Positions 3,563-45,578 of a DNA stretch of 64,000 nt are shown here, piece after piece; within the stretch, counting starts at the first letter, position 1, and each line of letters begins with the position of its first letter. The stretch comes from a virus. The notes beneath the pieces are model-generated. The model was not told where the DNA came from. It did no database searches and saw only the letters and a program-made list of their open reading frames with translations. The stretch lies in IMG/VR virus record IMGVR_UViG_3300009509_000001, positions 62,001 to 126,000 of that record; one strand, given 5' to 3'. The position numbers were made by a program, and so were the translations under genes.

Positions 3563-4363
3563 TCACACCCGCATATTGTTCATGAAGTTGGTGAATGCAC
3601 TGCCGCGCTGTGGCTGCGGCCGTCTGAAATTCCTGTTCGCCGCCCACCAGTTGGGGTTCTGCGGGTTCTGCTGTGCCTGGGCCTGCTGCTGCGGTTTGTC
3701 TCCGCCGAACAGACCTCCGGCCAGGAGCAGACCGCCGGCGCCGATCGCCAGCTTGCCCCAGTTGCCCTTCATCCAGTCGCCGATCTTTTTGTTGCGCTCG
3801 GTCTTATACTTGTCGTAGGCTCCCTTGGTGCCTGACATGAAGCCCTGGTTGAACTGCTTGGACACTTCCAGATCCGGATCAATGGCTTTACTGGGCTGCG
3901 CCGGCTGCGCCCCATCGTTCATGCCGAACATGCCCTTGACCATCTGTTTGCCTCTTTCGGCGGCGTCCACCACAGTGTTCACCGCAGGGGCTGCCGTAGT
4001 CGCCATCCGGTATTTCGGATCGCTCTCGGACATGATGCGCCGGTCTTCCGGGCTGAACTGTATCCGACGTTGCTCGGGCGTTAGCGTGCGCAGATAGTTT
4101 CCGTAGGATTCGATCTCCTGAGCGCGTCCACCGCCGGTAAGCCCTTCCCACACGCCCTTGCCCTGGACGTATCCGGTTACAAGTTTGCGTCCGGCCGCTG
4201 CACCTATCTGGTTCGCTTCTGCCGGGGTCTTGCCGGCCTTCAGCGCCGCCGCTCTGGCTCGCACGGTAGCGCTCGCCGCCTGCTGCCGCAGGGCGTTCAT
4301 GCGCTTGATCTGCTCGGGCGACATGCCCTGGGCCGTTTTCAGCAATGCTTCTTTAAGATGCAC
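3563..4363 (-). CDS. Putative internal virion protein with N-terminal KTA tag
   Basis: 266 residues. The N-terminus MHLKEALLKTA is the short form of the tag shared with four other products here. It is followed by a long helical region, a short glycine-rich hydrophobic span at about 207-223 (LAIGAGGLLLAGGLFGG) and a Q/N-rich tail. The gene ends two bases before the next start. By analogy with T4 internal proteins the tag could direct packaging and be removed, but that is inference. No enzymatic motif is visible. Confidence 0.7.
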   Translation of the reverse strand: MHLKEALLKTAQGMSPEQIKRMNALRQQAASATVRARAAALKAGKTPAEANQIGAAAGRKLVTGYVQGKGVWEGLTGGGRAQEIESYGNYLRTLTPEQRRIQFSPEDRRIMSESDPKYRMATTAAPAVNTVVDAAERGKQMVKGMFGMNDGAQPAQPSKAIDPDLEVSKQFNQGFMSGTKGAYDKYKTERNKKIGDWMKGNWGKLAIGAGGLLLAGGLFGGDKPQQQAQAQQNPQNPNWWAANRNFRRPQPQRGSAFTNFMNNMRV

Positions 4364-6364: not shown

Positions 6365-8224
6365 CTACATCATGCCACCCTGGGCCTTTGCCTGGGTGAG
6401 TGCTTGCGACTGCACTCCCTGCTCCATTTTCTGCAATTCCTCTTTGACGAGTGCGCTCATGGTCGGGTCCGTCTTGTTCAGGTTCGCGAGCTGACTCTGA
6501 CGGTCAGGTGCAGAGAATACCTGCTGCGCGAATGCGGCCGCATCGGCCTGCATCTGATCCAGTGTCGGTGGTCCGCCACCGCCAACCGGCATTCCGGGTG
6601 CGGGCGCTCCGCCGGCCGCAGGCATTACGCCGCCGGCCGCTGGTGGTGCCGCTTCGCCCTGCGGAAGCCCCATGTTGGCCTGCGCCGCGTTCGGCGGGAT
6701 CTGCCCGGGTGGCGCCATCTGGACGTATTCGTCCAGCATCTGGGCCTTGGACTCCTTGGCGTTCTCTTCGCGTGCGTCGTCGGCCATTTGGCGACGTTCC
6801 TCCTTGAGGCGCTCGCGCTCGATCTCCGGATCGATGTGGAAAGCTTTGAGGGCCGTGGTCTGCGAGACGACGCCGGCGCTGGCCAGATTCAATTTGACCT
6901 GCTTGGTGACGTCGTCTTCCGCGATCGACACATAGACCAGGCGGCCGTGAATCTCTTTCCAGCCGATCTGTTCGCTGCAGGCTTCGAGATACCAGTTTAT
7001 CCAGGTCGAGATCGGATCGGTGAAATGGCTCCAGCTGCGTTCGAAGGCTCTGAGGCCGATCGGTGGTCCGTTGACGGAAGCGAAGCTGCTGCGGTAGAAT
7101 TCGGTGGCCACGCCCATCGTGGTCAAAAGCTGGTCGTATCGGCGCTCGATCTGCTCGGCCGGGGTGATGCTCTGGCCTTCACCGCCGGCGATGTTGTAAT
7201 CGACGGGGGCCGGCAGCGTGTGCCAGCCGGTCGGATCGCTCTTGTGACGGCTGATCATGGCCTTCACGTTGCCCATGAAGTTCTGCATGCCGAAAGTCTG
7301 CAGCGGGTCGACGCCACCCTTGGTGGTGGCTGGCGTCAGATAACGGAGCGGGACGATCCAGTCGCTGGCGATGGCTTCGTCGAAACGCTCGAGCATCTGA
7401 AGCTGCACGACCTGACTGAAACAGCTCATGAACAGGGGTATTCCCCACCCGTCGTTAAGCCTGAATCCGCCTGCGGCCGGTTCGATCGAAAGGTGCTTGA
7501 AGGTCTCCGGGTCGAACCGAAGTCGTGTGCGGTCCTTGACAGCCTCGATGAACTCCCATGGAATGGAGCATAGCGACAAGTGGTCGCCCTTCTGGATCTT
7601 GCCGGCGCTTCGGCCGTCGATCCGCAGATAGAACTCGCGGCGGCCGCTCAGGCGGCAGAAATCGATCTCGACGTCGCGTGGGTCCCAGCGGATGACGACG
7701 AGCCCGCTCTTGTGGCTCTTGTCCTGTGAATCCTTGCGCTTATGTGCGCCGTGAAAGCCGCACGCTGGACAGGTGGACAGAAATTCATAGCCGGCCGACC
7801 ATTTGTAGTCGATGTCGGGCTTGAGTTTTTCGAGCACGCGGGTCATTCCGCACTCCGGACACTGGATGGACCGGTTGATGGGAAGCGTCAGACTGGTAAA
7901 GCTGTTGCCGAACCCGATAAGGTCGTCACCGACCAGACCGGCGTTCTCCAGGATGTTGAAGTCGCGATGGAGCTGGAGCGTGTAGTCCTTCCGCTCCGCG
8001 ACGCTCAGGTCCTCCCCATAGATCTCGAGTTCGTTCAGGAAATATCGAATGGACCGTTTGATGGCCATCGTATAGACGCCGTGACGATTCCACAGCCATT
8101 CCGCCCACTGAAGGACCTCGTCCATCGTGCGCGGGTATATGAGATTGGCGTAGGTTCTAAACGGATTCGCTACGCCCGTTGAGTCCAGGTCCCTTTTGTC
8201 GTATGGATTCAGCTCTATTGGCAT
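6365..8224 (-). CDS. Portal protein with zinc-ribbon insertion
   Basis: 619 residues. The central and C-terminal parts have the portal signature region, where a segment like IERRYDQLLTTMGVATEFYRSS precedes the helical stem and a C-terminal disordered P/G/A-rich tail. The portal is the dodecameric channel at one capsid vertex. It binds terminase during packaging and the neck afterwards. An unusual insertion carries CPEC at 122-125 and CPAC at 152-155, a likely zinc ribbon in the clip/wing side. The start overlaps a small zinc-finger gene. The assignment rests on pattern and neighbours. The length fits large-phage portals. Confidence 0.72.
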   Translation of the reverse strand: MPIELNPYDKRDLDSTGVANPFRTYANLIYPRTMDEVLQWAEWLWNRHGVYTMAIKRSIRYFLNELEIYGEDLSVAERKDYTLQLHRDFNILENAGLVGDDLIGFGNSFTSLTLPINRSIQCPECGMTRVLEKLKPDIDYKWSAGYEFLSTCPACGFHGAHKRKDSQDKSHKSGLVVIRWDPRDVEIDFCRLSGRREFYLRIDGRSAGKIQKGDHLSLCSIPWEFIEAVKDRTRLRFDPETFKHLSIEPAAGGFRLNDGWGIPLFMSCFSQVVQLQMLERFDEAIASDWIVPLRYLTPATTKGGVDPLQTFGMQNFMGNVKAMISRHKSDPTGWHTLPAPVDYNIAGGEGQSITPAEQIERRYDQLLTTMGVATEFYRSSFASVNGPPIGLRAFERSWSHFTDPISTWINWYLEACSEQIGWKEIHGRLVYVSIAEDDVTKQVKLNLASAGVVSQTTALKAFHIDPEIERERLKEERRQMADDAREENAKESKAQMLDEYVQMAPPGQIPPNAAQANMGLPQGEAAPPAAGGVMPAAGGAPAPGMPVGGGGPPTLDQMQADAAAFAQQVFSAPDRQSQLANLNKTDPTMSALVKEELQKMEQGVQSQALTQAKAQGGMM

Positions 8225-35202: not shown

Positions 35203-37119
35203 CTATTCGTACGTCGTGACGTCGGGGGCGGCCGGCGGCAGGCCCTGCTGCTTGCGGCGCTCGTTGAGTTTACGCTGCATGGCCTGCATCTTCTGGATGC
35301 TCAGCTGCTCTTCCCGTCGGTTCTCTTCGATGGCGCCGCTTACGTCCGTGTACAGGCCGGGTATGTCACTCGGCCCGAACTTCGGGTTGCTAATGGCGCC
35401 GACGAACGCCGGGTTGTTCACGAAGTCGCCCTGGAACCGCTCGCCGAGCATGCCGCCCACGCCCTTGCGGATACGCTCCGGGTCGCCGGCCGCATCGCGC
35501 TTGATCTTGGCGATGTCCCACAAAGCCTTGTTGATCTGTTCGCGGGAGAGCTGCTCGCGGAACTCCGGCTTTATCGGCAACAGGTCCAGGTTGCGCATGG
35601 TCTTCTCGAGACTCGGGTGATCGCCGTACGAGCCGGCCTTGCCCTTGCTGAGATCCAGGGACGGTGCCGGTGTCTTGTGCTTGGCATAGGCCAGGGCCGC
35701 GGCCGCTCCGCCCAGGCCGAGGCTTGCAAGCCCCCAGCCCAACCGGTTCTCGGGACTGTTCATGGCCTTGATCGCCGAGTAGGCGCTGCCGGCACCGGCC
35801 AGACCCGCGCCGATCTCGTACTTGTAATCCTTGGCGTTCTCCCACATGGCCTTGCCGGCCTTCTTCCAGTCGAAGGCGCTGGTCTTGCGCAGGTCCTTCA
35901 CGTTCTGGTCGGCCATGGCCTTGCGCTTCTTCAGGCTCTTGAGCAGCATGCGGTCGGACTCAGCCGTGTCGGGCTTGCCGGCGAACCGCTTGTTCATGGC
36001 ATGAAGCAGGTACGGCAGTGCCGCGCCGCCCAGGCCGCCAAGCGTGCTCCACAGCAGCTTGTTCTTGTCGGCCGTCAGCCAGCCGAGGCTCGATCCCAGC
36101 GTGCCGCCCACCAGGCCGGCAACCACCGGGTTGAAATTGTATTTGTCGCTCTTGGCCTGCTCGTCGCGCACCAGCTTGGCGTCCTCGAAAGCGGCCAGCT
36201 TGTCGTTGATGTCCATCTGTGCGGCAAGGGCCGCATCGGTCTGGGCACTCCTGCCGCTCTTGTCGGCTTTGCCCACCATCATCTTGTCGGCGACGTACGC
36301 CGATCCCATCGGTACGGCGCCGGCCACTGCGGTCTTGGCCGCCCGTGCCATCGGACGCTGCCGGCCCGCATAGGCCCTGGGCGCCGATCCGAGCGGTCCC
36401 TCGACGCGTTTGCCGACGGCGCTCATGGCGCTTCGTGGCGTAAGCGGGATCTCACGGCCGAGCGTCGGATGGTCCTTGATGTATTTCTTGGCCTTCTTGC
36501 CGCCGAGCAGGTACATGAGGGCGGCGCTGCTGACGCCTGCGGTGGCGCCCATCTGTGCCGTCTCCTTCTGCATGTTGATGCCGAACAGTGGATCGTCCGG
36601 GTAGTCGACCTTGCCGACCGTGGCCTTCTTGTCGCCGTAATGGGCCTGCGCCCCGACGTGCGGCTCTTTGCCGCCGAGTATCAGCTCGACGTTCCCGCCG
36701 ACGGTCTCGCCGCTCGGTTCGATCTTAACCGGGTTGTACTCTCCGACGGTGCGGGCCACGTCGCCGACCTTGCGCTTGACGCTCTCGGGTAGAACGGTGC
36801 TCAACCCTTCCTTGACGCCCTTGATGCCCCTGAGCGTGTCGACCAGTGGCGGCAACGCCGTGTCGATCACCTTGCCGGTGAAATCCTTGTCGCGTCCCGC
36901 CGCTTCGTCGATCTTCGCCTGCTCTTCCGGCGTGCGCTGGCTGCGGCCGTACATCGACAGCATGACCGCCGGTGTGCCCAGCCGCAGGGCTGTGCTGCCC
37001 ATGGCCTTGGGCGCCGCCTTCATGCGGAGAACCGCCGCCTTGCGCTTCCAGGGGTTGGTGAAGAGGGTGCCTTTGCCGGCCGCCGTCTTCTGTATCGGTT
37101 TGTCGAGCAGACGTCCCAT
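35203..37119 (-). CDS. Large glycine-zipper virion-type protein with N-terminal KTA tag
   Basis: 638 residues. The N-terminus MGRLLDKPIQKTA is the 13-residue tag shared by this set. Several glycine/alanine-rich hydrophobic segments follow, notably about 340-385 (VAGLVGGTLGSSLGWL, STLGGLGGAALPYLL) and 435-490 (IGAGLAGAGSAYSAI, GLGGAAAALAY). Basic linkers contain AKTAVAG and LRKTS. The C-terminus is polar and coiled. No enzyme motif is visible. Multiple zippers suggest membrane insertion or pore formation after ejection. Last gene of its unit, before a terminator. Confidence 0.7.
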   Translation of the reverse strand: MGRLLDKPIQKTAAGKGTLFTNPWKRKAAVLRMKAAPKAMGSTALRLGTPAVMLSMYGRSQRTPEEQAKIDEAAGRDKDFTGKVIDTALPPLVDTLRGIKGVKEGLSTVLPESVKRKVGDVARTVGEYNPVKIEPSGETVGGNVELILGGKEPHVGAQAHYGDKKATVGKVDYPDDPLFGINMQKETAQMGATAGVSSAALMYLLGGKKAKKYIKDHPTLGREIPLTPRSAMSAVGKRVEGPLGSAPRAYAGRQRPMARAAKTAVAGAVPMGSAYVADKMMVGKADKSGRSAQTDAALAAQMDINDKLAAFEDAKLVRDEQAKSDKYNFNPVVAGLVGGTLGSSLGWLTADKNKLLWSTLGGLGGAALPYLLHAMNKRFAGKPDTAESDRMLLKSLKKRKAMADQNVKDLRKTSAFDWKKAGKAMWENAKDYKYEIGAGLAGAGSAYSAIKAMNSPENRLGWGLASLGLGGAAAALAYAKHKTPAPSLDLSKGKAGSYGDHPSLEKTMRNLDLLPIKPEFREQLSREQINKALWDIAKIKRDAAGDPERIRKGVGGMLGERFQGDFVNNPAFVGAISNPKFGPSDIPGLYTDVSGAIEENRREEQLSIQKMQAMQRKLNERRKQQGLPPAAPDVTTYE

Positions 37120-37122
37120 GGG

Positions 37123-37875
37123 TTATGCCTTCTTCTTCTCGCGTTCCTTGATGTACTTGGCGAGCAATGCCGCCAGTCCGGCACCGGTCAATGCACCGCC
37201 GGCCGCGCCGATGAGGCCGCTGCCCATGCGGTTGCCCAGCGCGTATCCGCCGATGCCGCCGGCCAGGGCGCCGGCCGCTCCTGCCTGGAGCTCCTGATTG
37301 TTCTTGATCTCTTCGAGCAGTTCCTGCCATACGCTGGTGCGCGGGGCCGCCGTGCTGTGGGTCGTGTCCTTGGGCGGGTTGTAGTCGCTTACCATCCCGG
37401 TGGGACTCAGCTTCTCGCCGACCTTCTTGCCGACCGCTGCGGTGCCCAGCGTGCTTCCGGCCAGAATGGCCTTTCCTTTCTTGGTCTTGGCCAGTTCGCT
37501 TACTTCCGGACTCTTGGTGGCTTTGCCGTAGACACTGCCGGCCTTGGTGGCCTTGGGGACCGTGCCGCCGCTCGGAGCCGTAATAGTGGAACCGGCCTGC
37601 CCCGCCTGGCGGCCATAGTTGAAGTCGCTGACGATCTCGCCGGGACGGCGGGCCGCACCCTTCAGTGCGTCGACCGGCTTCTTCGTCTTGTCGAGGAGGC
37701 CGCCGACCAGATTCCTGATCGGGGTCCGCTTCGGCGGCATGGTCGCATCCATCAATTCGCCGAGCGAAGGCTTCTTCGCCTGCTTGTGTAGCTGTGCGGT
37801 CTTGGCCATCGGTTCATTGAAGCCGAAGGCCGTACGGAGTTCGCTCATCCGCTGGGGTGATACTGCATGTGTCAT
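37123..37875 (-). CDS. Glycine-zipper virion-type protein with MAKTA
   Basis: 250 residues. MAKTA at 23-27 is followed by a basic linker and a strong double glycine-zipper hairpin at about 199-240 (AGALAGGIGGYALG, GAAGGALTGAGLAALLA). The end is a lysine-rich KEREKKKA. The architecture is like the other cluster members: soluble basic front, membrane hairpin at the end. Unknown family. Confidence 0.68.
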   Translation of the reverse strand: MTHAVSPQRMSELRTAFGFNEPMAKTAQLHKQAKKPSLGELMDATMPPKRTPIRNLVGGLLDKTKKPVDALKGAARRPGEIVSDFNYGRQAGQAGSTITAPSGGTVPKATKAGSVYGKATKSPEVSELAKTKKGKAILAGSTLGTAAVGKKVGEKLSPTGMVSDYNPPKDTTHSTAAPRTSVWQELLEEIKNNQELQAGAAGALAGGIGGYALGNRMGSGLIGAAGGALTGAGLAALLAKYIKEREKKKA

Positions 37876-37891: not shown

Positions 37892-39868
37892 CTATTTAGG
37901 TGTCATGGCGTTCATCTCGTCGTACCAGCTCTGGTTGGAAGCCGCCTGTCGGGCCTTCTCGGCCTGGTTGCGCAGCCTTGCGGCCCGCACGATCTCCTGG
38001 ATGCGTTCACCGAGGCTGGTGTCGGCACTCATGCTCTCGGCCCACTTGTTGCCGGCGGTCAGCTCGCCAAGCGTGTTGACGCTCTCGACGCCGCCGCGGA
38101 GTACGTTGCCGAACACCGGCACGCCCTCGCTGAAGTTTCGAACGAACCCGGTCGCACCGCCCCTCTTGCTGGTCTGCCGAAGGATGTCGCCGATCTCCGA
38201 CGGTTTGAGGGCCTCGGCCTCGAGCTTCGCACGGGCCATAAGGTCCTTGTACTCGGCATACACAGCGTCTCGTTCGTACCCGCTCATTTCATCAAAGTTC
38301 TTGCCTTCCGCGCCCACCATGCGCTTGGCGTGATGGGTGAGCAGATGGTGCGCCCTCCCGACGTCGCGCTTGGACTTCAGGGCTGCCACCGCCTTGTAGA
38401 AATCGTTCAGCTGCACCCGCTGCTCGAGCGGGCTTCCCTTGGTCGCCAGCGCATGGCCATAGGACAGTCCGATGCGCGCCGGGTTGTAGACCTGCATGGT
38501 CGTGCCAAGCGTGCCGAGTCCCATGACCTTCAATGCGTCGTTGCGCTTCTGGTTCCACTCGTCGTCCGTCATCTCGCCGGCCTGGTACTTCTTGAAATCG
38601 TCTTCCAGCATCGCTGCGGCTTCGGGTATGGCCTCCGCCATCTGCCGGGCGTTCTGCAGCTCGACCGGCGCCTTCTGCTCCAGATTGGATACGGCGGCAT
38701 TGAGCATCTTGTCGCCCTGACGGCCACGGTCGCCCTGCGTGACAAGGTTGGCAAAGTCCTCGAGCTCGATGGTCTTCTCGCCGGTCTTGGGATCGGTGGC
38801 CAGCATCTGGTAGGATTCCACGATGTTGTCGGCGATCTCAATGGGTATAAGGAGCTTGCCGGCCAGTTTCTCGGCACCGGGGCGCATCGCCGTGGGGCCG
38901 AAGCGTGCGGCCAGGTTGACGGGCAGCCCCAGCTGTCCGGCGATGATACCGGCCCGGTTCTCGGGATCGCTGGTCATCTGCGACCATAGATTGCTGACCT
39001 TCTCCACCGGCCCGCCGGCGCTTCCGCTTATGGGAATGCCCTCGGGAGTCGTCGTATAGGTTCCGTAGTCCTTCCAGCCGTGAGTGCCTTCCTTGCCCTC
39101 GACGATGTCGGCCATGGCATTGGTGATCCGGTTCGGGTGCATCGGGCTTATCTCGCCACTGCCGACCATACTGAAAATGGATCGCTCCGCCCGCTGGATG
39201 TCCTGGGGCGTCGGGATCTTGCCGGTCTTGTACTTGTGGACCACGGCGTAGTCGGTGAGCAGCTGGCGGCGCAGTTCGGGCGGCAGGCTGACGGTGGCAC
39301 CGCTGCCGACCGTGCCCTTGGCTTCGTAGGGCGCCACCTTCATGATGTCGCGCAAGGCCCCGCTCACTTCCTGAACGTCCTCGGGCTTCATCGTTTCGAA
39401 CTTGAGGTTCTCGTAGAGCGGCGCGTCCTCCTGCTGGAGCTGCTTGACGTCGGCCTGGTACTGGGCCTCGTCCTGCTTCTGAATGATGTCGCCCCGCTTG
39501 ACCCGCCGCTGCGGCTTGCCGGTACGGGGATCGATCGGAGTCGGCGGGGCCGCAACCTGTGGCTGCTGTGGCGTCGGCGGCTGTCCTGGCGTCGGCGGCG
39601 GCTGCGGCGTCGGCGGCGGTTTCGGGGAAGCCGCGCTTGTCGGCGGCTGTTTGCCGAAGCCCTGGCTCAGCGTGTTCTTGAACCGGTCGACCATCTTCGG
39701 GTCGTCCCATGCCTGGTAGCCCAGACCGGCTGCGGCGCCGAGCAGTGTGCCAGCACCGCTTACGCGGCCACGCAACGCCCATTCACCGAGGGTACCGGCT
39801 CCTGCGCCGATGCCGCCGGCGATCAACGCCTTTACCAGGTCGTCGCCTTTAAGTCGTGGTTTCGCCAA
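37892..39868 (-). CDS. Large virion-type protein with proline-repeat linker, TTG start
   Basis: 658 residues from the TTG at 39868, which has GGGAGG five bases upstream; the longer frame reads into the upstream gene. A short glycine-zipper (ALIAGGIGAGAGTLGEWAL) is at about 11-35. A PPTP-repeat linker lies near 80-110. The remaining 530 residues are a large, mostly helical soluble region with no recognised motif. No exact KTA. Candidate ejected or tail-tube-lumen protein. Confidence 0.65.
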   Translation of the reverse strand: MAKPRLKGDDLVKALIAGGIGAGAGTLGEWALRGRVSGAGTLLGAAAGLGYQAWDDPKMVDRFKNTLSQGFGKQPPTSAASPKPPPTPQPPPTPGQPPTPQQPQVAAPPTPIDPRTGKPQRRVKRGDIIQKQDEAQYQADVKQLQQEDAPLYENLKFETMKPEDVQEVSGALRDIMKVAPYEAKGTVGSGATVSLPPELRRQLLTDYAVVHKYKTGKIPTPQDIQRAERSIFSMVGSGEISPMHPNRITNAMADIVEGKEGTHGWKDYGTYTTTPEGIPISGSAGGPVEKVSNLWSQMTSDPENRAGIIAGQLGLPVNLAARFGPTAMRPGAEKLAGKLLIPIEIADNIVESYQMLATDPKTGEKTIELEDFANLVTQGDRGRQGDKMLNAAVSNLEQKAPVELQNARQMAEAIPEAAAMLEDDFKKYQAGEMTDDEWNQKRNDALKVMGLGTLGTTMQVYNPARIGLSYGHALATKGSPLEQRVQLNDFYKAVAALKSKRDVGRAHHLLTHHAKRMVGAEGKNFDEMSGYERDAVYAEYKDLMARAKLEAEALKPSEIGDILRQTSKRGGATGFVRNFSEGVPVFGNVLRGGVESVNTLGELTAGNKWAESMSADTSLGERIQEIVRAARLRNQAEKARQAASNQSWYDEMNAMTPK

Positions 39869-40898
39869 CTGTTCCTCCCTTGCCGATGTTCCATTCACGG
39901 CCGTAGGTGCTGCCGAGGCCCGCACCGGCCAATGCACCGCCGCCACCGCCGAGCAGTATGCCCAGCATGTAATCGGCCGCATCGGGGTTGGTTTTCATAA
40001 GTTTGGTGATGAGCATGCCCAAGCCGGCTCCGAGGGGTACGCCGGCCGCAGCGCCGACAAGGCCCTTGCTGCCGCGGTCAACCTTCTCGTTCAAAGCCTT
40101 CAGATGTTCGCCGACTTCGCCAACGCTCTTCTTGGTGGAACCCAGGTCCTCGCGGATCTGCTGGGTGCCTTCCTGGATGTCGCCCTTGACCCACGCCTCC
40201 TTGCGCATCATCTCGATCGTGTGGTCGATCAGCTCGAACATATTTCCAGGAACTCCTGGATTTGCGGTCTTCTCGATGCTGGCGTTCGGGGTCTTGCCAC
40301 GCTTGGCGAACGGCGTGGTGCCGACGCCCTGGTCGGCGTCCATGACCTGGAAGCTGTGGGGGTTCGATCCCTCGGTCTTCGAGTTACGGATCTTCTCGGC
40401 GAGCTGGCCGCGTGCATGCTTGCGGCAGGCGGCGGCCTTGATGACCCCGGCGACCTTGTGCATGACCCGCTGCTTGACGCCGGGCTCGTACTCGGCGTTC
40501 TTGATCAGATGCTCGGCGAGTAAACCGGTGCCGGCGGTCTTCTTCAGACTCGGGTACTTGGCGTGGACCTTGGCCCGGACCTGTGCCTTCTCTTCGTCGG
40601 TGCCGTGCATGCCCACCAGGCGAAGGGCGGAGCGTGCATGCTCGATGTCGTGTATCGGGTAGTTGCCGCTCTTCTTCTTTTCCTTGGCGTTCTCAGCCTT
40701 TCCGGGGATGGCGAAATTCTTCGTGGCGATGTGGCTGCGCTGCTTGGCCTTGAGGGTCGCTGACTTCTTGTGGCCCTTCTTCTTCTGCTTGTTGGCGGTG
40801 GCGTAGAAGATCTGTTCGCCCTTCTTGTCGCCGTACTGCTTCTTCATCTGGGCCATGACCTCTTCGCCCTTGCCGTCGTAGTATTTGGATAGTGGCAT
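39849..40898 (-). CDS. DUF6582-containing virion-type protein with two KTA sites
   Basis: 349 residues. The N-terminal 40 residues (KYYDGKGEEVMAQMKKQYGDKKGEQIFYATANK) and the segment at 61-116 (FAIPGKAEN, YPIHDIEHARSALRLV, EEKAQVRAKVHAKYP) match patterns common in phage structural-region proteins; the second is like DUF6582. LKKTA (118-122) lies directly after that domain and IEKTA (208-212) before the helical part. A double glycine zipper lies at about 277-335. The palindrome at 40242-40263 is within this frame. Confidence 0.7.
   Translation of the reverse strand: MPLSKYYDGKGEEVMAQMKKQYGDKKGEQIFYATANKQKKKGHKKSATLKAKQRSHIATKNFAIPGKAENAKEKKKSGNYPIHDIEHARSALRLVGMHGTDEEKAQVRAKVHAKYPSLKKTAGTGLLAEHLIKNAEYEPGVKQRVMHKVAGVIKAAACRKHARGQLAEKIRNSKTEGSNPHSFQVMDADQGVGTTPFAKRGKTPNASIEKTANPGVPGNMFELIDHTIEMMRKEAWVKGDIQEGTQQIREDLGSTKKSVGEVGEHLKALNEKVDRGSKGLVGAAAGVPLGAGLGMLITKLMKTNPDAADYMLGILLGGGGGALAGAGLGSTYGREWNIGKGGTVGETTT
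40242..40263. repeat. 22-bp palindromic element, coding copy 1
   Basis: Exact reverse complement of 55110-55131 over all 22 bases, and close to 9195-9216. Here it encodes NPGVPGN in the DUF6582-type protein, so it is not conserved because of shared protein sequence. Confidence 0.7.
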
Positions 40899-40909: not shown

Positions 40910-41233
40910 TTAACGGGGTATGCGCCGTTGCACCAGCTCCTGCCGGGGCTTGAAGTCACGGTCCACGTAACCGCCCCGATTGTAGCTGGCTTTGCTGACG
41001 TTCATCGGCTGCTTGCTGGCCACGTTGGCTGGGTCGATCGGTGCACCCTTGATCTCGCGGCTTCCGGTCGGGCTCTGGCCACGCTTCATCCGTGCCAGGT
41101 TCTGTTGACGGAGCTTCTCGGCTGCCGCCTTCTTCGCTTGGGCCGCCCGCTGCATCTCCATCATCTGTTGCCGGGCGGCGGCGTTGCGATCGAAAGCCGT
41201 CTTGCGGATCAACGCGTCTTTGAGATGTCCCAT
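40910..41233 (-). CDS. Small basic protein with N-terminal KTA tag
   Basis: 107 residues. MGHLKDALIRKTA is the tag. The rest is a strongly basic helix (MMEMQRAAQAKKAAAEKLRQQNLARMKRG) and a basic disordered tail. Size, charge and tag are like T4 internal proteins packaged with DNA. Function after injection is unknown. Confidence 0.7.
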   Translation of the reverse strand: MGHLKDALIRKTAFDRNAAARQQMMEMQRAAQAKKAAAEKLRQQNLARMKRGQSPTGSREIKGAPIDPANVASKQPMNVSKASYNRGGYVDRDFKPRQELVQRRIPR

Positions 41234-41242
41234 GGTCGCCTC

Positions 41243-41845
41243 CTACTTCTTAGTGGCGTCGTACTTGTGCTGGGCCACGATGGCCTTGCGGGCACCAGGG
41301 CTCACGCGGCCTTTGAAGTTGACGTTCGGGTACTTCTTCTTGGCGGCCTTCAGGCCCATGTTCTCGGCCTTGGTCTCAGCCTGCTCGACCTTCAGGTTCT
41401 TGCGGCCGGCCGCGGCGTCCGTCTGTTCACCGACGGCGACTGCGGCCTGCTTCGTGAGCAGGGCTGCCACCAGGTCGTTGACGACTTCATGCTTGACGCT
41501 TGCGGCCTTGCTGAGGTCTGCCCGCTCGTTGGCACGGGGCCTGGCCGGCGGGAACGTGCTCGGTGTCAATGACGGGGCGCCCAGTCCCGGCTTGGGCGGA
41601 TACTTCTTGCGGATCATCTCGTAAATCTTGCGCTTTTTGCTCTCCGGGCTTTCCTGCACGGCGCTTGGCTGAGTGGCGCCCGGCATTCCCAGCGGGGCGA
41701 TGGGCTTGGGCATCGTCTGTACGCCGGCGGCGACTCCGCCTGCGTTGCCGCCCTGCCGCACGGATTCTAAAATGCCTTTGCCGATTCTGCTGAGATTTCC
41801 GGATCTGGCAGTTTTACGGATAAGTGCTTCAGTTAACAGTCCCAT
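41243..41845 (-). CDS. Internal in-frame start: 200-residue C-terminal product
   Basis: The ATG at 41845 has AAGGAG eight bases upstream and starts with MGLLTEALIRKTA, the same 13-residue tag that opens other separate genes. Both features together argue for independent translation of the C-terminal half of the 424-residue gene. Nested in-frame starts are known for phage scaffold/protease pairs. Confidence 0.55.
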   Translation of the reverse strand: MGLLTEALIRKTARSGNLSRIGKGILESVRQGGNAGGVAAGVQTMPKPIAPLGMPGATQPSAVQESPESKKRKIYEMIRKKYPPKPGLGAPSLTPSTFPPARPRANERADLSKAASVKHEVVNDLVAALLTKQAAVAVGEQTDAAAGRKNLKVEQAETKAENMGLKAAKKKYPNVNFKGRVSPGARKAIVAQHKYDATKK

Positions 41846-42517
41846 TGGTGTGTCTCCTTGTTGTTCTGCGGTCTTCGGCAGCTGGCGGCCTTCGCTCATC
41901 TGCTGTGCAAGTATCTTCCAGTCTTCGGGCGTCATGGTTTCGCGCCGTGCCATCCAGCGGCCGAGGGCGCTGCCCATACCGGTACCGAGTGCGGCACCGC
42001 CCAGTCCACCGGCCACTCCGCCGATTGCGGCGGCGGTACCCTTGGCGTCGTCACTGGCCTTGTTGAACAGGGCGAGCATGATCGCCGCACCCATGCCGGC
42101 GCCGGTGGCTCCGCCGACCAGACCGCCGCTTGCGCCGCCCAGTCCCTGGAGTGCAGCGGACTCGAGCCGGCTGCTGCCACGGGCGGGTCGGGCCAAACCA
42201 TGAGCGGCACCACCCACGAACGGGATGGTCTGGATCAAATCTGTCTTGTCGTCGAAGGCGGCGGCTTTCATGATCACCGGGCCACCCTTCTCGTTGGCGG
42301 CGTCAAGCGCTGCCTGAGCCTGGGACTTCAGCTTCTCGGCCTCAAGTTCCTTGGAATGCGTGTCGACGTACCACTGGGCAGTGCGCCGCACATGCTCCGG
42401 CGTATTCGGATCGTCGAGTACGGCCTGGGCCTTTTCGATCTCGGCGGCCTTGTCGACCTTGAACATATCCATGAGTCCGGCAGTCTTGCGGACGAGGGCA
42501 TTTGCGAGTAGCGGCAT
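41243..42517 (-). CDS. Virion-type protein with two tag-like segments
   Basis: 424 residues from the ATG at 42517; upstream codons have no ribosome site. The N-terminus MPLLANALVRKTA is the tag. A glycine-zipper region lies at about 98-180. LPKTA lies near residue 215. At residue 225 a second tag MGLLTEALIRKTA begins, preceded in the DNA by AAGGAG at eight bases. The C-terminal 200 residues are basic and helical, with LTKQA as a further variant. It looks like two tagged proteins fused in frame, or one gene making two products. Confidence 0.7.
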   Translation of the reverse strand: MPLLANALVRKTAGLMDMFKVDKAAEIEKAQAVLDDPNTPEHVRRTAQWYVDTHSKELEAEKLKSQAQAALDAANEKGGPVIMKAAAFDDKTDLIQTIPFVGGAAHGLARPARGSSRLESAALQGLGGASGGLVGGATGAGMGAAIMLALFNKASDDAKGTAAAIGGVAGGLGGAALGTGMGSALGRWMARRETMTPEDWKILAQQMSEGRQLPKTAEQQGDTPMGLLTEALIRKTARSGNLSRIGKGILESVRQGGNAGGVAAGVQTMPKPIAPLGMPGATQPSAVQESPESKKRKIYEMIRKKYPPKPGLGAPSLTPSTFPPARPRANERADLSKAASVKHEVVNDLVAALLTKQAAVAVGEQTDAAAGRKNLKVEQAETKAENMGLKAAKKKYPNVNFKGRVSPGARKAIVAQHKYDATKK

Positions 42518-42740: not shown

Positions 42741-45566
42741 TCATTTGCCGACCGCCCGCTTCACCATGGTCTTGATCTTGCCGGTGTTTTTCGTGACGCC
42801 CTTGGCCTTGTCGTCGTATATGGCGGTGCAATACATGTCCTTGACGCAGGTGATGGGCAGTACCTGGCCAATGTGGGCCATGCACCACTTGTCGATGTGG
42901 TAGCGGGCCTTCCCGTCGTCGCCGCTTGCCCGGGCAGTCAGGATCTTTACCTTCTTGCCGTCGGCGAGCCATGCCTTTACCCGGTCGACCATGGGCTTGA
43001 TCGGTGCGCCGATGTGGCCACGGCCCTTCCATTCGGTATATCGGGCCAGCGTGCCGTCAAGGTCCACGCCGATCCATTCCTTTGCCGGGTCGTATTTGAG
43101 GGCTTTCTTGTGCAGGTCGTATCGTTGTGCGGCCGCCCGCAGCTCTTCCTGCGGTATGCCGACGTTGTGTTCATTGAGCTTGGGCCGTACGGCGTCGGCC
43201 GGTACCCGGAACATACCGCACAGCTCGCGCAGCTTGGCCTCCAGCTGGTCGGCGTCCATCGCCGCGGTCTTCCGCAGCCGTCGACTCAATGCCAGTAAAG
43301 CGGGTGCCGCCAGTGCACCGGTCGCTCCGCCGGCCAAGGCGCCGATAAGCTTGTCGTCGGCGAGCCATGCGCCGGCCGCTCCGCCCAGGCCCAGCCCGGC
43401 CAATGCCGCAGTGCCGTAGCCGCCCGGTGCCTTGGCCTTCGGCTGTTGCGGCTGCGGTTGTGGCCGTGGCGTCTGTGTGACCTGCGGTTCGACGCCTGTT
43501 TCGGGTTCGCCGTTATCGCGCATGAGCAATGCCGTGCCGCCGGCGGTGGCCGCAGTCGCCGCAGTGGCGATCGCCGCCTTCTTGCCGGTCGACATCTTGC
43601 CGGTCGCCGGCGGGTCGGTGATTCTTGCCGTGGGCTTGGCCGGCGGTGGATCGGTGATGCGTGCCGTGGACTTGGCGAAAGGCTCCGGTGCCGGCAGGGG
43701 CTCGAACCACGACCTGTTGTGCGTCGGGTCCGCGTTCCAGTCGTCGCCGTAGCCCATGACCGTTCTTGAATTTACGTTGCGCCCCTTTCCGGTCGCTTCC
43801 TGAAACTTCAGCGCCGTATCCATGTATTCGCCGGCGGCCCGCGAAAGCTTGTCGGAGTCTACGTTGCCCCTGAGCGACGGGTCTTTGCGCAGGCGATCCT
43901 TTATCGCCATGCTGACGTCGTACGGCCCGCGGCCGGACGTGTACGTGTGTCCCGGGTGGACGCGATCGATCAGCTTTTGATGGAGCCGCTGGGCGCGCGG
44001 ACCCTCCAAGTACCGCATCGCGTCCATGTACGGCATTTCGCCGGCCTTCTCGTACATGCGCTTCAGCACGCCGAAAGCGCGGGTCGCGTCCGACTCGAAC
44101 TTGAACGCCGGCGTCTTGGCCGCAGCGGTCTTCGGCAGCAGGTTGCCGACCACCACGAGCCGGTCGCGAAGGCTCGGATTCGCCATGAGCCTGAAATGGG
44201 CGTCCGCCTGCTTCTTCAGCTGCTTGGCCTTGGCGCTGGTGGTCGCCGCCACCGGACCGCCGGCCGGCAACAGCTTCTTGATGCGCAGCGCCAGGAGCTT
44301 GCGGCCGTTGATGGTGGGCTGGCCGTTCTCGTCGGTTCCTATACTTTCAACCTTCACAGGCTTGTTCTTGAATCTGCCTACGAGAACGGTGTCGCCCATC
44401 TCTATGTCGAGCACGATCTTCGCGATCTTGCGCAGCCGCGGGTCGGCCAACCGCTGCTTCAGCCGGATCTCCCGGTCGATCGCCCTGATGTCCATGTGGT
44501 AAGTTTTTATCTCAGCCTGCTTCGCCAGGGGCTTGAGCTCTCCCTTGGTCGGGCCGTCGCTCATGGCCCATTCCTTGAATTCGGCCCACGGCAGTTCGAC
44601 CACGGCGCCGTCGCGGTCCCAGCCGTCCTCGTAGTTCTGCCGGTAGGCTTGCACCGCCTGCTGCTTCGTGACGTAGCCGATCATGCACTTGTGCTCGTCG
44701 AACTTGCCGTCGGCGTCCAGCTGGTTGATCACGTACACGCTCTCGGCGTCCCATATGGTCTCGTCGTGGGGTATGCCCGGATTGATGAAGACGTCGAGAT
44801 GATCCTTGTCGTAGCCCCTGCTGCCGCGGATGTAGCCGTAGTCGTCCCACATGGTCTGGCTCCATTCGTTACCGTCGTCGTCCACTCCGCTCCTGACGGA
44901 CTTGAACGGGTTCTCGATGCTGATGTCCAGGCCGTCGATGGTTACGTGCGCCTTCTTGTAGTTCTCGGCCTTGATCTGGGCCTCGGTCGGCTGTAGCTCC
45001 ATGTCCTGGCCCTTGGCCACCCCATGCTCGACCTCCGCGGCGGTCTTGGCCAGGCGCGGTATGAGCAGCGTACTGTAGCGGTCGGCCGGGTTGCTCCACC
45101 GGATGGCGCTGATCGGAAACTTCTGGCCGCTCACGAAATTGGCGAGCCGTGCGTACTTGGCGGGGTCCACGTCCTTCTTCAGGTAGGCGACGGTGACGTG
45201 CGGCCGGTAGGTCTTGTGCGTTTCGCCCGGCATCCTGACGCCGGCGCGCACCGCCTTGTTCAATGCATGCAGGTCCGGACTGTCGACGTCGAACTTCAGC
45301 ACCTTGTAGTCGCCCTGGTCGAAGTGACTGAGCCCGCCGACGGTACCCTGCCCCTGCAGGATTTCCTTGATCGCCTCCTTCGTGGAGCGCGGGTCGTCTT
45401 CTTCATGCCCGTAGGCAAGCGTGACGTGTGGATGCTTCTCGAGGCCGAACCCGTCCTCGTCGTACAAATCCTCCTTGGCGATGGCGCGCTGGATCATAGC
45501 GATCCGAAGCGCCACGCTCCTGGGCATGTCGATGCCCATCCAACCGTATGATTTTTCTTTAGCCAT
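42741..45566 (-). CDS. Polyvalent protein: 2H phosphoesterase, InPase-like and HAD domains
   Basis: 941 residues. Residues 1-170 are a 2H phosphoesterase with two HxT motifs, HVTLAYG (47-53) and HVTVAYL (123-129). Residues 205-335 match the InPase-type domain of phage polyvalent proteins (GLDISIENPFKSVRSG, DYGYIRGSRGYDKDHLDVFINP, KFDEHKCMIGYVT). About 660-760 holds membrane-like glycine/alanine segments. Residues 828-935 are HAD-like (WIGVDLDGTLARY, KVKILTAR). LAKTA (172-176), LAKQA (347-351), LPKTA (477-481) and LRKTA (764-768) fall at or near domain borders. Polyvalent proteins are thought to enter the host with phage DNA and counter host functions. First gene of its unit. Confidence 0.78.
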   Translation of the reverse strand: MAKEKSYGWMGIDMPRSVALRIAMIQRAIAKEDLYDEDGFGLEKHPHVTLAYGHEEDDPRSTKEAIKEILQGQGTVGGLSHFDQGDYKVLKFDVDSPDLHALNKAVRAGVRMPGETHKTYRPHVTVAYLKKDVDPAKYARLANFVSGQKFPISAIRWSNPADRYSTLLIPRLAKTAAEVEHGVAKGQDMELQPTEAQIKAENYKKAHVTIDGLDISIENPFKSVRSGVDDDGNEWSQTMWDDYGYIRGSRGYDKDHLDVFINPGIPHDETIWDAESVYVINQLDADGKFDEHKCMIGYVTKQQAVQAYRQNYEDGWDRDGAVVELPWAEFKEWAMSDGPTKGELKPLAKQAEIKTYHMDIRAIDREIRLKQRLADPRLRKIAKIVLDIEMGDTVLVGRFKNKPVKVESIGTDENGQPTINGRKLLALRIKKLLPAGGPVAATTSAKAKQLKKQADAHFRLMANPSLRDRLVVVGNLLPKTAAAKTPAFKFESDATRAFGVLKRMYEKAGEMPYMDAMRYLEGPRAQRLHQKLIDRVHPGHTYTSGRGPYDVSMAIKDRLRKDPSLRGNVDSDKLSRAAGEYMDTALKFQEATGKGRNVNSRTVMGYGDDWNADPTHNRSWFEPLPAPEPFAKSTARITDPPPAKPTARITDPPATGKMSTGKKAAIATAATAATAGGTALLMRDNGEPETGVEPQVTQTPRPQPQPQQPKAKAPGGYGTAALAGLGLGGAAGAWLADDKLIGALAGGATGALAAPALLALSRRLRKTAAMDADQLEAKLRELCGMFRVPADAVRPKLNEHNVGIPQEELRAAAQRYDLHKKALKYDPAKEWIGVDLDGTLARYTEWKGRGHIGAPIKPMVDRVKAWLADGKKVKILTARASGDDGKARYHIDKWCMAHIGQVLPITCVKDMYCTAIYDDKAKGVTKNTGKIKTMVKRAVGK

Positions 45567-45572
45567 GGGTAT

Positions 45573-45578
45573 AATATA
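45573..45578 (-). promoter_or_regulatory. Possible leaderless -10 (TATATT) before the polyvalent gene
   Basis: TATATT ends exactly seven bases before the A of the ATG, the usual distance to a transcription start, and no Shine-Dalgarno sequence precedes this ATG. The -35 region is poor (TTTTCT). A leaderless mRNA is possible. Confidence 0.35.

Follow-up and report, generated by a model that had tools for sequence, protein, structure and literature searches.

Candidate head-protease sites between the enzyme units of a 941-residue phage protein

The window analyzed here is a 64,000-nucleotide stretch of viral DNA, corresponding to bases 62001-126000 of a 194,576-base IMG/VR virus record. One of its genes (42741..45566; minus strand, as for all window features below) encodes a protein of 941 amino acids (aa) in which several enzyme domains and repeated K-x-A motifs share a single chain. 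This raises the question of whether the protein acts as one multi-domain effector or is a precursor from which the phage's head protease releases separate virion cargo proteins.

Domain make-up and motif sites of the 941-residue protein

The 941-aa reading frame begins at ATG 45566. The true start may instead be a second ATG (45539; 932 aa), because the TATATTATA element 5' of the gene (45570..45578) lies 39 nt before it, a spacing that resembles those of two other elements on the strand (43 and 37 nt). The coding strand has three TATANTATA elements in total (window 45570-45578, minus; G000 185985 and 194062), all of them intergenic and 37-43 nt 5' of gene starts; they are a possible promoter class.

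The N-terminal unit (45111..45563; residues 2-152) is a 2H phosphoesterase with two HxT motifs (H47 and H123) and a Pfam match to the 2'-5' RNA ligase/2H family PF13563 over residues 43-152 (E 2e-12). It is followed by an InPase unit (44565..44984; residues 195-334; PF18823, E 4e-49), a small unit of unassigned function with stand-alone homologues (44229..44417; residues 384-446), a helical domain (43791..44123; residues 482-592; pLDDT mostly 74-90), an Ala/Gly-rich glycine-zipper region (43281..43424; about residues 715-762) and a HAD phosphatase unit (42774..43076; residues 831-931; DLDGT at 835). In the structure model, the HAD unit matches the fold of T4 polynucleotide kinase/phosphatase (2ia5, probability 0.96-1.0), and this part also matches a PHROG of polynucleotide kinases. 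An earlier reading made from the sequence alone had named the 2H, InPase-like, glycine-zipper and HAD regions, and Pfam, the fold match and the sequence bear this out.

The presence of distinct enzyme domains (2H, InPase and HAD) in one chain is characteristic of polyvalent proteins, and both InPase PF18823 and 2H are listed as phage-type domains for that class (PMC5512222). Annotations of several InPase relatives name them as phage head or portal proteins. The whole 941-aa protein has no relative in the genome contigs, and no close relative was found; likewise, the helical unit has no relative in the viral contigs. The structure model of the chain, with a mean pLDDT of 47, gives usable information for just two parts, residues 482-592 and the HAD fold. 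It was built from a five-sequence alignment because in several mixed alignments MAFFT had put fragments in the wrong place. No peptidase domain was detected in the chain by Pfam, and self-processing by an in-chain peptidase was rejected on that ground; cutting would therefore have to occur in trans.

Five strong matches to the motif [LIVMP]xK[TQ]A occur in the protein: LAKTA (45039..45053; residues 172-176), LAKQA (44514..44528; residues 347-351), LKKQA (44205..44219; residues 450-454), LPKTA (44124..44138; residues 477-481), directly followed by the helical domain, which is predicted with confidence from residue 482 on, and LRKTA (43263..43277; residues 764-768). The sequence-only reading had placed four of these exactly, overlooking the equally strong LKKQA. 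Its predicted fragments of about 176, 175, 287 and 173 aa are kept with five sites, and its fragment of about 130 aa becomes two pieces of about 103 and 27 aa. Weaker h-x-K-x-A matches are LRKIA at the N-terminal border of the small unit (44421..44435; residues 378-382), LHKKA (43101..43115; residues 818-822), MVKRA near the C-terminus (42753..42767; residues 934-938) and PAKYA, which lies inside the 2H domain (residues 135-139).

The five strong sites compare with a mean of 0.24 and a maximum of 3 in 2000 whole-protein shuffles, and with a mean of 0.34 and a maximum of 4 in 1000 local 15-residue shuffles. The protein therefore carries h-x-K-x-A sites above chance, as expected of a head-protease substrate. 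All five, LAKTA 172-176 included, fall outside the conserved domain cores, an arrangement with a chance probability of 0.02-0.03, calculated with borders that were set after the sites were known. This agrees with the earlier claim that the sites lie between or beside the units, which also occur separately elsewhere (see below). When the weaker matches are added, the InPase, small and HAD units are each flanked by sites on both sides. No N-terminal leader ending in the motif is present, the first site in the chain being at residue 135, unlike in neighboring genes. This weakens, without excluding, the status of the protein as a substrate, since leaders are common among substrates and not universal.

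The K-x-A motif in head genes and the candidate head protease

For motif counts, genes were called across the whole virus record. The capsid gene g041 (outside the window), the portal gene g059 and the RNA polymerase subunit genes g049 and g052 were assigned via PHROGs and Salmonella phage Arash. The probable portal protein g059 (6365..8224; 619 aa) is 26% identical to Arash gp204, which is annotated as portal, and matches phrog_2739 (E 2e-4).

The motif [LIVMP]xK[TQ]A occurs 33 times in the head genes, against 2.7 expected from shuffled sequences and 2.8 from local shuffles, and 5 times in the remaining genome against 5.5 expected. Reversed, permuted and substituted motifs give 1-6 matches versus 33. 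Chance or a local Lys/Ala-rich composition as the source of the motif is ruled out by these altered motifs together with the local shuffles. The tripeptide KTA, considered separately, is found 13 times in the first head block (3.2 expected) and 12 times in the block around the 941-aa gene (2.2 expected), and is near background elsewhere; it is the most enriched head-block tripeptide, also with the 941-aa gene left out. As a control of the method, the known protease motif [LI]xE in T4 head genes was counted 55 times against 28.6. The KTA-type motif of the sequence-only reading is thus enriched and restricted to head genes, but too narrowly drawn, as T is only one option.

Conservation was assessed in seven phages whose capsid proteins are 26-83% identical to g041. 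The capsid-protein search yielded IMG/VR relatives with 83, 62, 58 and 50% identity, and Arash and Vibrio phage D69 at about 25%. The capsid protein has a single site, at residues 24-28, which closes its leader, the position expected of a propeptide border. K26 and A28 are invariant in the seven phages and the middle residue varies (IRKQA, LRKQA, IQKEA, LQKEA, LVKEA, LTKEA). Invariant K-x-A pairs number one in the capsid protein, three in the g045 family and four in the g046 family, where about 0.04 would be expected each. In the g046 family, 9 of the 11 invariant residues are K or A and little else is kept; K-x-A repeats are dense in the scaffold-like g044 and g046. More distant capsid proteins have LEKIA ending at residue 19 (G006) and LLKSA ending at residue 21 (Tunturiibacter phage Tunturi_5), and the multiple alignment did not bring these two sites into register. 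For the 941-aa protein, conservation of its own sites was seen where it has unit borders in common with distant stand-alone homologues, and only there.

The gene g045, situated between g046 and the capsid gene, probably encodes the phage's own head protease. Tunturi_5 gp331, an annotated head maturation protease located close to a capsid protein match, matches the g045 family profile (E 8e-14), and phrog_18299 (head maturation protease) is matched by five of seven g045-family members (best E 7e-7). In phage G, the g045 homologue gp19 lies between the portal and capsid genes and matches phrog_18299 with an E of 3e-19. H119 and S171 are invariant in A1 and A15, phage G gp19 included, and are candidate catalytic residues. 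The family also carries K-x-A sites of its own, near the N-terminus and past the conserved domain. An hhalign profile comparison of g045 with T4 gp21, using shallow profiles, gave no match, nor did a PDB sequence search with the protease profile; the g045 structure model (pLDDT 43) gave no useful fold match.

Two g045 orthologues contain inteins (L028 5165-7786 and L031 5309-7903) at different insertion places, with LAGLIDADG-type endonuclease domains. In Bacillus phage G (L084 8704-10117), gp19 has LVKTA and LEKVA and gp20 starts with MSKKISRLKKTA. Phage G, whose capsid protein lacks a K-x-A site, may also belong to the K-x-A system.

Leaders and stand-alone units in neighboring genes and relatives

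The 941-aa gene is the first of a one-strand block, g111 to g105, most members of which have K-x-A leaders or glycine-zipper stretches. The second gene of this cargo block, g110 (41243..42517; 424 aa), has the leader MPLLANALVRKTA and an internal leader-like stretch, MGLLTEALIRKTA, which suggests a further case of two fused cargo proteins. It is followed by g109 (40910..41233; 107 aa), with the leader MGHLKDALIRKTA, and g108 (39849..40898; 349 aa), which has LKKTA, IEKTA and other K-x-A sites in addition to a Gly/Ala-rich hairpin. A single weak site, IMKVA, is present in g107 (37892..39868; 658 aa). MAKTA and LHKQA lie near the N-terminus of g106 (37123..37875; 250 aa), which has a glycine-zipper, and g105 (35203..37119; 638 aa), with a homologue in G002, has the leader MGRLLDKPIQKTA. 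Glycine-zipper runs similar to that of the 941-aa protein are found in g050, g057, g106 and g110. Such hairpins recur in the K-x-A-bearing head genes g050, g057, g106, g108 (in this case as read from the sequence), g110 and g111, and a role in membrane entry on ejection is possible.

Many head proteins share a 10-30-residue N-terminal leader closing in the motif, for example MGHLKDALIRKTA of g109 or MHLKEALLKTA of g056 in the first head block (3563..4363; 266 aa). Among the 33 head-gene sites, 11 end within residue 30 (p 3e-6). This leader trend is clear in G001, G002 and G005 and weak in G004. Another leader recurs in G002, G004 and G005, for example MNKDAFLDGYLYKQA and MNKRAYIEGYLSKEA, and is a probable capsid-targeting leader. 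Its pattern, roughly G-Y-x-x-G-Y-L-x-K-x-A or M-N-K-x-A-[YF]-x-x-G-Y-L-x-K-[EQT]-A, stands on otherwise unrelated small proteins (such as L048 8866-9333, minus, and L057 16469-16936, plus).

Units of the 941-aa protein have counterparts elsewhere as separate proteins. The 2H unit corresponds to a 178-aa stand-alone protein in L063, the InPase unit to stand-alone proteins of 176 and 167 aa, and the HAD unit to proteins of 114-124 aa. Residues 378-446 have counterparts in proteins of 94-442 aa, for example in L070 (94 aa), L071 (178 aa) and G002 (367 aa). Homologues of the small unit start right past a K-x-A leader (MSTLADKLKKAA in G002, MIKLNAELLEKIA in G006), which lines up with LRKIA 378-382, and the G002 homologue has MNKEA at about the place of LKKQA 450-454. 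The 367-aa protein of G002 (L057 15364-16467, plus) also contains an internal leader-like stretch, MNIKQKGYLEGYTQKEA, and is itself a possible small polyprotein.

In Tunturi_5, gp272 has the order InPase, LEKTA, GP88, the site lying just past InPase as does LAKQA 347-351. The neighboring gp273 starts with MAKSRLLKKA, whose LLKKA aligns with LHKKA 818-822, and continues with HAD, after which FAKVA is found at about the place of MVKRA 934-938. NUDIX (140-254), ART-PolyVal (425-567) and GNAT (597-647) domains follow. The K-x-A sites of gp273 ending at residues 122, 402 and 696 fall between or past domains. Their number is not above chance (5 versus 2.4 expected), so only the site positions support the idea of cutting between units.

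Proposed processing and comparison with known systems

These observations suggest that the gene product is a joint precursor of several virion cargo proteins. The precursor chain would enter the prohead, where the head protease of the phage itself, probably g045, would cleave it in trans between the units as the head matures, at [LIVMP]-x-K-x-A sites (mostly K-T/Q-A) and presumably after the Ala. This would free the 2H phosphoesterase, the InPase, the small unit, the helical domain together with the glycine-zipper, and the HAD phosphatase as separate pieces, which would enter the host along with the DNA. There, the enzymes could plausibly repair cut RNA ends or remove nucleotide signals. That the K-x-A motif is a head-protease site is very likely given its distribution and conservation, and packaging of the 941-aa protein in the virion also appears likely. 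Cutting at two or more inter-unit sites is somewhat more doubtful, and we consider it, like the explanation as a whole, moderately probable. The sequence-only reading had proposed such a polyprotein cut in the head. Its central idea holds up in that the motif, restricted to head genes and kept in the capsid protein, the protease and the scaffold-like protein, behaves as a head-protease site and lies between units; its definition of the motif was too narrow.

A first alternative is a single effector: the protein would be packaged and its enzymes would stay joined, as is usual for polyvalent proteins, with no more than one or two trimming cuts, for instance at the small unit or close to the C-terminus. 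Precedents exist: P1 DarA is shortened by only one N-terminal piece of about 9 kDa (PMC12810830), and the virion RNA polymerase of N4 is packaged without processing (PMC5512222). In addition, PAKYA lies inside a folded domain, so not every motif match need be cut. However, the five strong sites are 20 times the shuffled number and all lie outside domain cores, and with the weaker matches the InPase, small and HAD units have sites on both sides. We consider limited trimming unlikely.

The dense repeats in g044 and g046 would also fit a docking or scaffold-binding motif, repeated for multivalent binding within the prohead and never cut. This is harder to reconcile with the single leader-closing site of the capsid protein and with the candidate protease's own sites near its N-terminus and past its conserved domain. 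Docking and cutting are moreover compatible, as T4 leaders do both, and a motif for binding only seems quite improbable. Least probable, and by our estimate very much so, is that the protein is made late and remains inside the cell that made it, working there as a multifunctional enzyme whose sites are unused relics of fusion. The missing N-terminal leader agrees with such a role, but the gene heads a block whose members mostly carry K-x-A leaders, the protein has a glycine-zipper as several neighbors do, and InPase relatives include annotated virion proteins.

If the polyprotein explanation is true, a single gene provides the phage with several enzymes for delivery, and the reused capsid protease makes a self-cutting domain unnecessary. 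The motif would then offer a sequence-only means of listing proteins that are candidates for packaging in a little-studied group of large phages, and exact protein termini follow from it as predictions. Tentatively, and with rather less confidence, we propose that host-directed enzymes are modular in this phage group, each encoded as an exchangeable cassette with head-protease sites at its borders. These would either stand alone, with the site ending a targeting leader, or be joined head-to-tail with junctions that keep the sites; the head protease would then serve both to mature the capsid and to free a set of effectors for injection.

Polyvalent proteins were defined by Iyer et al. in 2017, who proposed their DNA-linked delivery and their processing into functional units (PMC5512222). 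The 941-aa protein resembles them in combining several enzyme domains, InPase and 2H among them, in one phage protein. However, that processing was ascribed to an in-chain metallopeptidase (MPTase) or assemblin-like domain. No such domain was found in the 941-aa chain and its sites match head-protein sites, which implies that any cutting occurs in trans.

The P1 Dar system likewise combines packaged antirestriction proteins with head-linked processing: Pro, the prohead protease, cuts DarA (PMC12810830), DdrB is processed before packaging (PMC12810830, PMC5512222) and DarB has an N-terminal capsid-targeting sequence (PMC9024508). It differs in that DarA loses a single N-terminal piece, and the portions of the sources covered describe no set of sites between enzyme units. 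The P1 capsid protein is cut between Glu120 and Ser121; K-x-A is not P1's site. The proteases of T4, phiKZ, 201phi2-1 and SPN3US cut after Glu (PMC5694885). In T4, proteins are steered into the prohead by N-terminal leaders, 10-20 residues long, that have the protease site at their end (PMC5694885), similar to the leaders seen here, but gp21 cuts after Glu whereas the present motif ends in Lys-x-Ala. SPN3US gp245 and phiKZ gp175, together with the ejection proteins, come from large phages with a virion RNA polymerase and several multi-motif propeptides on head proteins; there, multiple cuts break up propeptides, and the portions of the sources covered describe no multi-enzyme cargo precursor.

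Among isolated relatives, Salmonella phage Arash has the capsid protein, portal, RNA polymerase subunits, candidate protease and K-x-A sites in common with this phage, and its virions contain the RNA polymerase subunits (PMC10585845). A tblastn search with the 941-aa protein gave no Arash match among the best 40 records listed. The Arash proteome table (PMC10585845) gives 100% coverage for proteins with two unique peptides and was therefore not used for judging cleavage. Tunturi_5 shares a related head protease and capsid protein, has InPase and HAD in neighboring genes with K-x-A at unit borders, and encodes in gp273 a second polyvalent protein with K-x-A between domains, including ART-PolyVal. 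It differs in that InPase and HAD are in separate genes, joined with GP88, NUDIX, ART and GNAT.

The link between polyvalent proteins and head maturation, also drawn by the sequence-only reading, is compatible with the motif findings but is not a new idea: head-linked processing of packaged proteins is already known in P1, from DarA cutting by the prohead protease and DdrB processing, and processing was proposed by Iyer et al. in 2017. A K-x-A head-protease motif was not found in the literature searched, which covers part of the literature. What is new is the Lys-x-Ala motif, where characterized relatives cut after Glu, together with units bounded by its sites.
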